Source: Acidobacteriota bacterium (GTDB lineage: Bacteria > Acidobacteriota > Holophagae > Holophagales > Holophagaceae). From it: a stretch of 64,000 nt of DNA. Shown in pieces: positions 16,658 to 21,342 of the stretch. The stretch spans positions 1-64,000 of the forward strand of contig SXYX01000012.1 of NCBI GenBank assembly GCA_005788175.1. The letters are read 5' to 3'. Below the pieces are notes generated by a model. It was not told the DNA's origin, did not search any database, and saw only the letters and a list, made by a program, of their open reading frames with translations. The translations under genes and the position numbers were made by a program. Position 1 is the first letter of the stretch, and each line of letters starts with the position of its first letter.

Positions 16658-17578
16658 TTAATACATTTGACGATTGACACCTTTGACTTCTCCTGGATCT
16701 TCGGGCGGAGGTGGGTCTGTATATACGTGCATACTTTGGCTTTTCGTAGGTAAATATGACATACCAAAATATGTGAATAGGATCAATGTCCAAGCTAAAG
16801 CGCTGACTTTGAGAGCTATACGACCCTTAAGGAATGATGTATGGTGCATATGAAGTACAACACCGTAGATCAGCCAGGAGATAAGACCCCAGTTTTCTTT
16901 AGGATCCCAGGCCCAATAATCAGACCATGCGAATTTAGCCCACAAGCCACCCGTAATCAAACCCCCCAAAAGGAAGAGGTATCCAATACGAACCCAATCT
17001 CTATGCAATATCTCAAAATTCATTTCTTGGCGCCCTAGCGCACGCGCCCAAAATGAGTCTTTATCTAAACTTATGTCACCGGTTTTAACCAACGCTAGGA
17101 TACTAAGAACAAATGCAACTGTAACACTAGAGTACCCAGAAAAATAAATGGTCACATGGGGAAGAAACCAGCCACTATTGAGCGCTGGTGGCACAGTGAC
17201 AATATCGATGTCTTGTTTCAATAGTGCAAATGTTTCTGCTGAGAGAATGATAGCCAACGAAAGAAATCCTAGTAATTTTATTTTTTTAAACCATTCGATC
17301 GAAAGTGCCAATAATCCGAATAAAAAACTAAAGTAAAGAAGGCTCTCATAGAAGGTTTTAAAGGGAGGGCGGCCTGCCACAATGCCCCTAGAAATTAGAA
17401 TATAAGCGTTCATACACCAAGCAAATAAGAAAAGAATACGAGCTACATGATAGATATTAGCTTCATATTTAGTCTTGATAATGCTCAATGCATAAGCAAT
17501 ACATGAACAAAAATAAGCGACTAGCATGATTTGAAAACCTATTTCAGCTTTAGCGAAGTTGAAATATAAATTCATCAT
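16658..17578 (-). CDS. ccsA: cytochrome c biogenesis protein CcsA/CcmC family
   Basis: Heme-handling motif WAWDPKENWGLISW; multiple TM helices; overlaps resB. Confidence 0.93.
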   Translation of the reverse strand: MMNLYFNFAKAEIGFQIMLVAYFCSCIAYALSIIKTKYEANIYHVARILFLFAWCMNAYILISRGIVAGRPPFKTFYESLLYFSFLFGLLALSIEWFKKIKLLGFLSLAIILSAETFALLKQDIDIVTVPPALNSGWFLPHVTIYFSGYSSVTVAFVLSILALVKTGDISLDKDSFWARALGRQEMNFEILHRDWVRIGYLFLLGGLITGGLWAKFAWSDYWAWDPKENWGLISWLIYGVVLHMHHTSFLKGRIALKVSALAWTLILFTYFGMSYLPTKSQSMHVYTDPPPPEDPGEVKGVNRQMY

Positions 17579-19611
17579 TTTTTAATACCCCCTGCCTGTT
17601 TCTGGAAAAAAGGCTTTAAGTAAAACATCCATATTGTACCGATAGCAATCATTGCAAATCCTAAATAAGTTATCCAAAGACCAGGTTCGTATACAACCAT
17701 CACGCCACTCACGGAAGGATCTTCCGGATTATAGTTACTCTGATAAAACCATAGTCCTTTATAAACAAGAGGGCCATTAACTGAAATTTCTCTTTGTGCT
17801 AGTGTTTTGCCGCTAAAGTCGAGCAAGGTGATCTTTGAACGAAAGTCCTTTGCTTCTTCATCTTTTAGGCGATAAATGAGACCTAGATTATTACCGAAGA
17901 AAGTTGTTGGTCGCGCCTCTCTGCCATCTAGCCATGCTGTTTCAGATTTTCCTGTATCCGGATCCGATAGAGTGACTTGAATGGCGGGGTTTCTTTCTGA
18001 AATAGATCGTGTTTGAGGATTGGGTATATATTTTTGTTCAATTCGTGCATTCGACAAAAGAGAGAGTGGCGTCGCAGAGTATCCATTCTTAAAAACAAAA
18101 GGCCTATCGATGATCAGTGGCATTTCTTTTGAGATTCGACCATTTTCAATCGAACGGATCTTCATATCATTTTTTGAAAAGAGCACGAAATTAGAAAATA
18201 ACTCCTCGCCAGAAGCTTGATATCGTATATCAAGACCTGGTGGAAGATTTTGGGCATTCAGACTATTGGAAAATTCGGGATTACGTGAACTTAAAAGAAT
18301 CTTCCCTCTCTGCCCATCATTTTTTGTCAGTTCTAATTCAGCCCAATTTCCTCTCATCTCCATTGGAATTGTTTCTAATTTTACAGGTCGACCATCAGGA
18401 TCTTTTTCGAATGGAAAATCTTTGTAAAGACGGATCATTTTCAGTTTAAAAACTGGAAATTCCCAAATATCCCCTTTTTTAAATTCTCTATTTAGTTTTT
18501 TTCCTGCGAAAGTGATTTCTATAAGATGACTTGTGGCTTCTCTTTTCTGGAAACTATTAAGATTTTTAGCCTCGAAGACCTCATTAAAGACGAGGGCAAA
18601 CCTCCCTTGAGGATCATTGAACCTTTGGGTACGAGGATCTTGAGCAACTAAATACCCTAGGAGTGGGTTAGGCGAACCTGTTCCAAGCATGATCTGCAGA
18701 ACGGGGTTTTCAGGAGAGGTGGTGTCATTGGTCCAGGTGCTTCGATTGAGGCCATCGGGTAGCGCTTTCAAGATCTCAAGCCGTTTCCATGTGAGTGGTA
18801 GCCTGGCCTTCAAGCCTTCTTTGGATTCGTATGATTTGGGGTTTTCTTCAAAGCCACCTTTACCATCAGGCTGAGTGAAAACATAGAGGCGATATTCCGG
18901 ATCATTCTTAATAACTTCAAATTGATCTAGTCGAACATTGAAAGGGAGAGTGAAAGGATTTTTCCAATCATTAGGGTCAGGGCCTTTGACTTTCCAGAAG
19001 ACCGATACAGGCTGATTTTGTTTTAGTTCATTGAAGGCTCTCACAAACCCAAATTTACCTATCAAGCCGCCAAGTAAAATTACAGTGGTTGCCAAATGAA
19101 CAATTAAGAAGCCCGCTCTTGCTAAGTTATAAGGTCTTCGCTTCCACGCAACCGCTAAGGTACTTGCAGATAAGAGTGCCATAAGGGAGAGAAACCATAA
19201 AGATCGGTAGAGGTCGTAAGCAAAAGCATATTTAACTAGGAAAAGGGCCCAGTCACCCCACCACACAGAGCTATAAAGATCTAAATATTCGGAAAATTTC
19301 AATTCCTGAAGGATGAGTGTTCCCAGGGCCGTTGCAGCAGCCATGAATGTCAGCTGAGAAATAGCAAAGGGGACACTTGTAAGCAGTCGGTATGTCCAAG
19401 AGGGGGCTAATCCAATGACAAGCCCAGTAATAATAATTAAACCGGCCAAAAAGCTGGAAACCTGCTGAACATCATTCCATTTGAGGCTATTGCACAGATG
19501 CTGGAATAATACCCATAGACAAACCCAAAGAATCAAGGCAAAAACTTGCTCTAGAATATTTTCGTGAAAAAGTCTTCTGTTTGAAGCATATTTAAATTTA
19601 CTCAATATCAA
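17575..19611 (-). CDS. resB: cytochrome c biogenesis protein ResB
   Basis: 678 aa with N-terminal TM helices, large periplasmic region and C-terminal YQSNYNPEDPSVSGVMVVYEPGLWITYLGFAMIAIGTIWMFYLKP. Confidence 0.87.
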   Translation of the reverse strand: MILSKFKYASNRRLFHENILEQVFALILWVCLWVLFQHLCNSLKWNDVQQVSSFLAGLIIITGLVIGLAPSWTYRLLTSVPFAISQLTFMAAATALGTLILQELKFSEYLDLYSSVWWGDWALFLVKYAFAYDLYRSLWFLSLMALLSASTLAVAWKRRPYNLARAGFLIVHLATTVILLGGLIGKFGFVRAFNELKQNQPVSVFWKVKGPDPNDWKNPFTLPFNVRLDQFEVIKNDPEYRLYVFTQPDGKGGFEENPKSYESKEGLKARLPLTWKRLEILKALPDGLNRSTWTNDTTSPENPVLQIMLGTGSPNPLLGYLVAQDPRTQRFNDPQGRFALVFNEVFEAKNLNSFQKREATSHLIEITFAGKKLNREFKKGDIWEFPVFKLKMIRLYKDFPFEKDPDGRPVKLETIPMEMRGNWAELELTKNDGQRGKILLSSRNPEFSNSLNAQNLPPGLDIRYQASGEELFSNFVLFSKNDMKIRSIENGRISKEMPLIIDRPFVFKNGYSATPLSLLSNARIEQKYIPNPQTRSISERNPAIQVTLSDPDTGKSETAWLDGREARPTTFFGNNLGLIYRLKDEEAKDFRSKITLLDFSGKTLAQREISVNGPLVYKGLWFYQSNYNPEDPSVSGVMVVYEPGLWITYLGFAMIAIGTIWMFYLKPFFQKQAGGIKK

Positions 19612-19632: not shown

Positions 19633-21342
19633 TTACAAATACAATAAACCTAACAAGAAAAAACTAAATTCGGGACGCAGATTGATGCTTGGCGAACCAG
19701 CAGAAAATCGGTGATGATAAAACCACCAATAAAAAATGGGGTACAGCAAAGCGCTACTTAAAGAGATTTGAATTAGTGGCGAACATTGCCTACAAGTTGA
19801 ATAAACGAGTGACAGAGTCAAAAGTACTAAACCAAAGACAACCCAAAGGGACTTTGTTCGCCCTAATGCAATGGGAAGAGTCTCTTTGCCTAGAACGCGA
19901 TCCTTTTGCATATCCCTCAAGTCATAAATAAATGTTCTAGATAGTGCCAAAGTAAAAATGACCATATAAAACTTTGTATGTAAAAGACCAAGAGAGTATT
20001 CATATTGAATACTTGGGGCTGAAACCATAAGGAAACTTATTGCAAGCGGCACAAATAGGTCCTTGCTCCCGGGAATTGATCGCAAACTTAAACTTTGATT
20101 ACTCGAAGCCCCTAATATTCCTATTCGATATCCCAAACTGACTACAACAGTAATAATGAAACATATTAAATACACAGGGCCTATACGTGCAGCGAAAAAC
20201 ATGGATACGATAGCTGAAGTTATAGAGACGTTTAATAAAAGTAAGCGATTATTTTCTAAAAATTTAGCTTGAGCTGGGCCTTTCACATTTAATCCTAGAG
20301 GCTCGAGATAAGGAGCTGCTAAATACATTGAAAAAATATAAAAACCCACCGTTAGTGCAATATCGGTTGAGGCTACATAATTCATTTGATTTGAAATACC
20401 TAGACTTGCAACGATTATTGAACTGCTAAGAAGGAAAGGAGTAAAAAAAGCTCGACTAATTCTTTTCTTTAGGGAGGTCCAGTAATCGTTTGTGGTCTCT
20501 AGGCAATCAACAACTTCATCCACAAGCCAAGTTGGTGTTGATGCACCCGCTAAGACACCAACGGTTTCGGAGCCTAAAAATTGAGATAGATCAATTTCTT
20601 GAGCCGTTTCTACATATTGAACCGGCTTTCCATGCCGTTTAGCCAAATCTGCGAGATGCTTCGTATTACTTGATTCTTTTCCGCCAACGACGACAACGTG
20701 ATCTACCCTTTTGCTTAGGGACTCAGCATCATCCTGTCTCATCCAGGTATCTTCACAAATTGTATTTTCAACAATACAATCATCGGCTTGGCTTTCAAGG
20801 TAGGTTGAGATCGTTTGAAAATCGGCTACCGTGAAGGTGGTTTGGGCAACAATGAGACACTTGGAGAGTTCTTTTGAGGTCAATTGTTTAGCTTCGTCCA
20901 TATTTGAAATAATTATTGAATCGCTTTCGGCAAAACTCCGGTGAGCAATGGACTCTGGATGCCCCTTGGAGCCCAAAATAATAGTGAAGTAACCTTTAGG
21001 GCTCCATTTTTTGATTTTATTATGGACCTTTGCAACCTCTGGGCATGTTGCATTAACAATCTTGAGGTGTCCTTGATCTTGTCTTTCTTTAAGGCCACGA
21101 AGTGCTTGAATGGGGATACCGTGCGCTCGAATAACTACAGTGCCGTCTTTGACCTCATCAGGTTCCGTAACTACAGAGACGCCTCTGTTTTCAATCAGTG
21201 CTAGGGCTTGAGGATTATGGATAAGAGGACCTAGTGTTTGGACTTTATTGCTGTGACTTTGCAAAGACGCCTCAAGTACAGCGTCCATTGCGCGCTTAAC
21301 GCCCCAGCAAAAACCTGCGGTCTTAGAGACAATTACTTTCAT
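19633..21342 (-). CDS. ispH: 4-hydroxy-3-methylbut-2-enyl diphosphate reductase (IspH/LytB) fused to a C-terminal UbiA-like membrane domain
   Basis: N-terminal ~285 aa: AGFCWGVKRAMD, VIRAHGIP, NATCPEVAKVH, VAQTTFT, NTICEDTWMRQ, VVGGKESSNTKHL, LAGASTP. C-terminal ~280 aa multi-TM with FIYDLRDMQKDRVLGKETLPIALGRTKS (UbiA second Asp-rich motif). Confidence 0.9.
   Translation of the reverse strand: MKVIVSKTAGFCWGVKRAMDAVLEASLQSHSNKVQTLGPLIHNPQALALIENRGVSVVTEPDEVKDGTVVIRAHGIPIQALRGLKERQDQGHLKIVNATCPEVAKVHNKIKKWSPKGYFTIILGSKGHPESIAHRSFAESDSIIISNMDEAKQLTSKELSKCLIVAQTTFTVADFQTISTYLESQADDCIVENTICEDTWMRQDDAESLSKRVDHVVVVGGKESSNTKHLADLAKRHGKPVQYVETAQEIDLSQFLGSETVGVLAGASTPTWLVDEVVDCLETTNDYWTSLKKRISRAFFTPFLLSSSIIVASLGISNQMNYVASTDIALTVGFYIFSMYLAAPYLEPLGLNVKGPAQAKFLENNRLLLLNVSITSAIVSMFFAARIGPVYLICFIITVVVSLGYRIGILGASSNQSLSLRSIPGSKDLFVPLAISFLMVSAPSIQYEYSLGLLHTKFYMVIFTLALSRTFIYDLRDMQKDRVLGKETLPIALGRTKSLWVVFGLVLLTLSLVYSTCRQCSPLIQISLSSALLYPIFYWWFYHHRFSAGSPSINLRPEFSFFLLGLLYL

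Follow-up and report, generated by a model that had tools for sequence, protein, structure and literature searches.

IspH catalyses the final step of the MEP route, the conversion of HMBPP into IPP and DMAPP. The closest described relatives of the protein analysed here are the IspH-UbiA hybrids (PT_UbiA_5) of Rao et al. 2015 (Chem Sci), who reported 47 of them, mainly from Desulfobacterales (PMC4746011). Those hybrids were said to carry two DXXXD repeats, their hosts were all anaerobes, and expression of the full-length hybrid failed (PMC4746011). In the open-access literature, we found no later study of an IspH-UbiA fusion.

The catalytic residues of UbiA are best considered through the A. 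fulgidus homolog (AfUbiA), in which motif 1 consists of N68, D72 and D76 and motif 2 of D198 and D202 (PMC4106721). Replacement of R22, N68, D72 or K146 with Ala abolished the binding of GPP, which was 45-fold weaker with D198A and 21-fold weaker with D202A; roles of the tyrosine Y139 and of K146 were described as well, and MenA lost its function when the residues corresponding to these four motif positions were mutated (PMC4106721). Another UbiA-fold protein, UBIAD1, has been described as a sensor of GGPP for the mevalonate-route enzyme HMG-CoA reductase (PMC9314443).

Here we describe a fusion protein from an Acidobacteriota bacterium of the family Holophagaceae, encoded in a stretch of 64,000 nucleotides (contig SXYX01000012.1, positions 1 to 64,000), which we call the window. 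The IspH-UbiA fusion class is already published; what is added here is the degradation of motif 1 in the sampled lineages, with the domain being kept.

Results

Positions 19633..21342 of the window (this and all features below are on the minus strand) form one ORF of 569 aa plus stop, with an ATG start and no internal stop, and full-length counterparts exist in many genomes. The original prediction of a single uninterrupted frame that joins IspH to a UbiA-like domain therefore holds, as PF02401 scored 270 bits on this ORF and PF01040 35.5 bits on its C-terminal half. The IspH (LytB) domain occupies residues 1-284 (20491..21342). In the Pfam scan the LytB match covered residues 3-281; TIGR00216 (ispH_lytB) in the NCBIfam scan reached 251 bits, above its cut-off of 187.85, and phmmer matched the domain to A. 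aeolicus IspH (3dnf) with an E value of 2.4e-52. The cluster cysteines, Cys12 (AGFCWGV), Cys100 (NATCPEV) and Cys196 (NTICEDT), were all present together with GASTP, as had been predicted, and His42, His74, His128, Glu130, Thr169, Ser224, Asn226 and Ser268 were intact too. All 11 active-site residues checked were thus intact in the window protein, and they were identical across 14 representatives. The AlphaFold model of the whole protein had a pLDDT of 86.2 and a pTM of 0.76, and its IspH domain matched 3dnf/3f7t. An IspG gene was also found in the genome. From the intact residues, the sole copy and the presence of IspG, we infer that the IspH half would reduce HMBPP.

The remainder of the protein, residues 285-569 (19636..20490), has nine predicted TM helices. 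PF01040 (UbiA) scored above its cut-off of 34.2 when the C-terminal half was scanned alone; in the full-length scan it scored 33.7 bits over residues 370-545, which is under that cut-off. AlphaFold modelled this half with a pLDDT of 86.2 and a pTM of 0.87. Its best PDB match in Foldseek was the A. fulgidus UbiA homolog 4tq3 (TM 0.66, E 6.7e-4), and UBIAD1 (8djk, the HMGCR-UBIAD1 complex) was among the best fold matches. The UbiA fold proposed for the C-terminal half is supported by this model. Neither a lack of UbiA similarity nor a pair of separate genes, the two outcomes that would speak against the proposed fusion, was found, because the fold matched UbiA and the frame recurred in independent assemblies.

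Several residues typical of catalytic UbiA proteins are kept. The second Asp motif, D474-LR-D477-MQK-D481 (19900..19923; YDLRDMQKDRVLGKETLP in the window protein), is intact, and its D477 and D481 form the expected DxxxD and correspond to D198 and D202 of AfUbiA, so that the motif had been recognized correctly. Tyr405 (20128..20130) is the near-universal UbiA tyrosine of TM4 (Y139 of AfUbiA) and was invariant in both of our alignments (A3 and A4). Loop 4-5 contains the motif RSIPGSKD (residues 421-428; 20059..20082), marked by invariant columns in the same alignments; K427 is invariant, and R421 likely occupies the position of AfUbiA K146, according to a by-eye alignment with AfUbiA PPRFKAWP.

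The first Asp motif is different. Where catalytic UbiA proteins have NxxxDxxxD, residues 343-351 (20290..20316) read APYLEPLGL, a register taken from alignment through relatives keeping LNxxxD and not from a solved structure. Ala343, Glu347 and Leu351 thereby replace Asn, Asp and Asp, and no Asp is left at the site. The original prediction of a motif 1 without Asp, and with its Mg ligands lost, was right in this respect; it needs to be refined in that Glu347 lies at the D72-equivalent, which is the second Mg ligand position, and in that all sampled relatives share the degradation. When the fused family was compared by hhalign with MqnP-type UbiA, the genome's own type, only the motif 2 half was aligned.

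The same fusion was sought elsewhere and proved to be conserved across phyla: there are about 85 distinct fused sequences, which belong to Nitrospinota, to Acidobacteriota (three families besides Holophagaceae) and to one further phylum. When one genome was scanned for each species, the complete fusion turned up in dozens of Holophagaceae genomes, cultured Geothrix included, and in genomes recorded as Nitrospinota, Nitrospinia and Nitrospirae; in genomes whose loci were not retrieved, the fusion was called by frame length. In the family of the window (f1), 22 genomes gave a match, and none of them had IspH in any form other than the fused frame. The fusion protein is the only IspH of this bacterium, a fused-only status judged by frame length. 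Within Acidobacteriota, f1, f9, f20 and f2, which shares its class with f1, contained the fusion, and f3 and many other families had stand-alone IspH, also by frame length. Seven near-complete genomes of the phylum (G001, G017, G059, G144, G152, G159 and G172) had no detected IspH. In Nitrospinota (the phylum of G276), 19 of 24 genomes contained the domain, a few of the frames being cut by contig ends; in the phylum of G275 it was found in 11 of 77. Relatives of the fusion were also searched for in viral contigs, and none were found. The UbiA halves of L097 and L098 look unfused only because contig ends cut them, and a match in G046 (L108) was rejected as a relative because it was an ordinary UbiA without IspH. 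A second, strongly diverged fused paralog of 517 aa was observed in G252 (L110:4418-5968), one of the 22 Holophagaceae genomes; it kept all IspH catalytic residues, and its shortened UbiA half gave only 17.8 bits. An IspH tree, which is unrooted and contains a few long rows, was built from 37 fused and 32 stand-alone sequences, and the fused rows all fell to the same side of one branch (support 99/96).

According to the alignments, motif 1 is degraded in all sampled lineages and not in the window alone. At the D76 position, Asp was present in no fused relative, and the residue was mostly hydrophobic in the alignment of the fused UbiA halves. The N68 position was Asn in most members of Nitrospinota, f2, f9, f20 and the G275 phylum; nearly all Holophagaceae had Ser, Thr or Ala, with Asn seen only in L008 and L043. 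At the position of D72, most fused sequences had Asp. The window's genus, in its three species, had Glu there, one Nitrospinota subgroup Arg or Asn, part of f2 Ser, and L109 Asn; altogether 74 of the 85 tree rows had an acidic residue at this position. On the IspH tree, at least four changes occurred at D72 and at least four at N68, three of each being forced by well-supported branches. Motif 2 was lost twice on this tree, and the fusion was retained each time. In f20, motif 2 reads FDIWVIQSNG, so both of its Asps are lost and the fusion is still there. Acidobacteriota fusions with damage to motif 2 in addition to motif 1, and with an intact IspH, were observed at L105 and L106 (f20) and L107 (f9).

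In Holophagaceae, the cytosolic loops 2-3 and 6-7, which carry motifs 1 and 2, had mean conservation of 0.89 and 0.91, compared to 0.61-0.76 for TM1-TM8, 0.85 for the short TM9 and 0.48-0.67 for the multi-residue loops of the opposite side (1-2, 5-6 and 7-8); the sampling behind these values leans towards Geothrix. Because its cytosolic loop is highly conserved, the rewritten motif 1 (typically PFLDPLGLGAKGPARARF) is itself conserved. In the window's genus (L003-L004), the UbiA half had a dN/dS of about 0.21, compared with 0.04 in IspH; pairs with saturated dS, of which there were many, were left out. The UbiA half is constrained, though more loosely than IspH. Between the window and Geothrix, identity was 33% in the UbiA half, 72% in IspH and 54% in the stand-alone MqnP-like UbiA. 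The UbiA half also changed much faster than IspH in the pair of Geothrix and L043. At L043:6853-7716, compared with L045, the UbiA half was 53% identical to that of Geothrix and the IspH half 92%, which may reflect either very uneven rates or a domain replacement. Near-complete genomes in the window's genus are about 1.2 Mb and retain the domain, which is therefore kept in small genomes.

The genome also contains a canonical stand-alone UbiA, whose presence the original prediction had suggested checking. This MqnP-like protein (L001) has NRLVDQDID, lies under the cut-offs of the MqnP models and over that of the UbiA-like subfamily TIGR01475, and would be able to carry out quinone prenylation. 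A third stand-alone UbiA with NSSFDNDEGD was observed in two near-complete congeners (L176:1405-2289 and L177:1441-2316), with two conserved genes beside it; it was not found in the incomplete genome of the window.

Downstream of the fusion on the same strand, as had been noted originally, are a resB-like gene (17575..19611; PF05140), beginning about 21 bases away, and then a ccsA/ccsB-like cytochrome c assembly gene (16658..17578; PF01578, with TIGR03144 below its cut-off). From this order a connection with quinone or heme had been suspected. However, resB and ccsA followed the fusion in the window's genus and several other Holophagaceae loci, which is only a part of this family, and in no other phylum. 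At most Geothrix loci, a short-chain dehydrogenase was the sole shared downstream gene. Neighbours were compared by tblastn of the window proteins, clustering being confounded by long antisense ORFs in GC-rich Geothrix, and none of the window neighbours tested was common to fusion loci of other phyla. The neighbours vary between phyla, with ParA/ParB, methyltransferase, symporter and beta-lactamase-fold genes among them; in one Nitrospinota subgroup (L113:7288-8918, L114 and L122), the fusion was observed directly before parA and parB. COX1-family genes were present in 13 of the 14 fusion-host genomes tested. The only COX1-family match in the window genome was nearest to the cbb3 type in the NCBIfam ranking, below curated cut-offs. 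Since cbb3-type oxidases need c-type cytochromes, a cbb3-like oxidase is sufficient to explain resB and ccsA without the fusion. We rejected the quinone or heme link, and consider the resB/ccsA association as local gene order only.

Discussion

On balance, we lean towards the explanation that the protein is a membrane-tethered form of the sole IspH, in which the UbiA half has ceased to work as a conventional prenyltransferase and provides a tether or scaffold. The IspH half would work at the surface of the inner membrane, where the UbiA-fold domain would anchor it, and the tether would most likely place IspH beside membrane prenyl-lipid enzymes. The UbiA half keeps its predicted fold, motif 2, Tyr405 and the cytosolic cap, with the Asn of motif 1 lost and the Asp changed, and it may have retained binding of a prenyl or phosphate ligand. 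Ala343 is the equivalent of N68 and Glu347 that of D72, and AfUbiA loses all GPP binding with N68A or D72A; loss of transferase activity is therefore favoured, and it is from these ligand changes that we infer it. In addition, metal ligands of motif 1 and motif 2 were lost repeatedly in several lineages while the fusion and the cytosolic cap loops were kept, and thus the join was probably not for ordinary prenyl transfer. The UbiA half probably tethers or regulates IspH. The retention of motif 2, Tyr405 and the conserved cap suggests that something is still bound, which makes a tether that also has a ligand role more likely than a simple dead anchor. The residues kept also weigh against our reading, since a pure anchor would not need motif 2, Tyr405, a basic residue in loop 4-5 or an acidic D72 position.

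The same retained residues could belong to an unusual but active prenyltransferase, in which Glu347 or Asp at the D72 position would hold the diphosphate together with motif 2 and the prenyl-PP would be made nearby. Rao et al. 2015 favoured such a reading on the Rosetta-stone argument (PMC4746011), and it is consistent with motif 2, Tyr405 and R421/K427 being retained, with the acidic D72-equivalent of most tree rows and with the strong conservation of the cytosolic cap loops. The conserved, rewritten loop 2-3 could be new chemistry and not the loss of it, and the family may be active in the Desulfobacterales members that were reported with two DXXXD motifs. However, the Asn is gone in nearly all Holophagaceae, and N68A/D72A kills binding or activity in AfUbiA and EcMenA (PMC4106721). 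In other lineages D72 is changed to Arg, Ser or Asn, the f20 proteins are still fused without both motif 2 Asps, and no conserved partner gene pointing to an acceptor emerged when the fusion loci were compared. We regard an active transferase as possible but rather unlikely. The loss of residues that bind GPP in AfUbiA also weighs against a non-catalytic sensor of prenyl diphosphate that would control IspH by feedback in cis, as a bacterial parallel of UBIAD1 with an independent origin. UBIAD1 is indeed a GGPP sensor for HMG-CoA reductase (PMC9314443) and is among the best fold matches, and the substrate-cap loops are the most conserved region; the fold match, however, merely restates UbiA homology and the link to UBIAD1 is an analogy, and we find this sensor improbable.

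Decay of the C-terminal half into a remnant that is gradually being lost and serves only to anchor the protein in the membrane would agree with its faster evolution relative to both IspH and the MqnP-like UbiA, and with the Holophagaceae paralog L110, whose UbiA half is much shortened and weakly matching. Such a remnant would hardly be expected to have a dN/dS of about 0.2 and cytosolic loops under strong conservation, or to persist in genomes of about 1.2 Mb, and none of the loci retrieved contained a broken copy; we give this idea little credit. That two genes were joined by an error of sequencing or assembly is practically out of the question, because independent assemblies, among them that of the cultured Geothrix fermentans DSM 14018 (L045), yielded about 85 distinct sequences with the same junction. 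In cultured Geothrix the fusion is the only IspH.

The protein resembles the hybrids of Rao et al. in that IspH is followed by UbiA in one chain, nine helices are predicted, the IspH cysteines are intact and the host genome has a separate UbiA too. Compared by the published description, theirs have two DXXXD motifs whereas motif 2 only is present here. Their hosts are sulfate-reducing anaerobes; ours are Holophagaceae, Nitrospinota and relatives. Many of ours have haem-copper oxidase genes, which makes restriction of the fusion to anaerobes less likely. The published fusion was read as two enzymes of the same pathway joined together, and the repeated loss of metal ligands described here points elsewhere. 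With the UbiA prenyltransferases (AfUbiA 4tq3, ApUbiA 4od5 and MqnP/MenA), the C-terminal half shares the fold, motif 2, the active-site tyrosine and the basic loop 4-5, but in the window the N and D of motif 1 became Ala and Glu, the third Asp became Leu, and the domain is fused to IspH. The IspH-RPS1 fusion similarly has a C-terminal domain joined to IspH; RPS1, however, is soluble, RNA-binding and unrelated to UbiA. In the complex of UBIAD1 with HMG-CoA reductase (8djk), a UbiA-fold protein is likewise physically paired with a key reductase of an isoprenoid route, although there the proteins are separate, the reductase is a different one and the motifs of UBIAD1 are kept, so that the functional parallel is speculative. 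If the domain does regulate IspH, bacteria too would use a UbiA fold to control a key reductase of isoprenoid synthesis.
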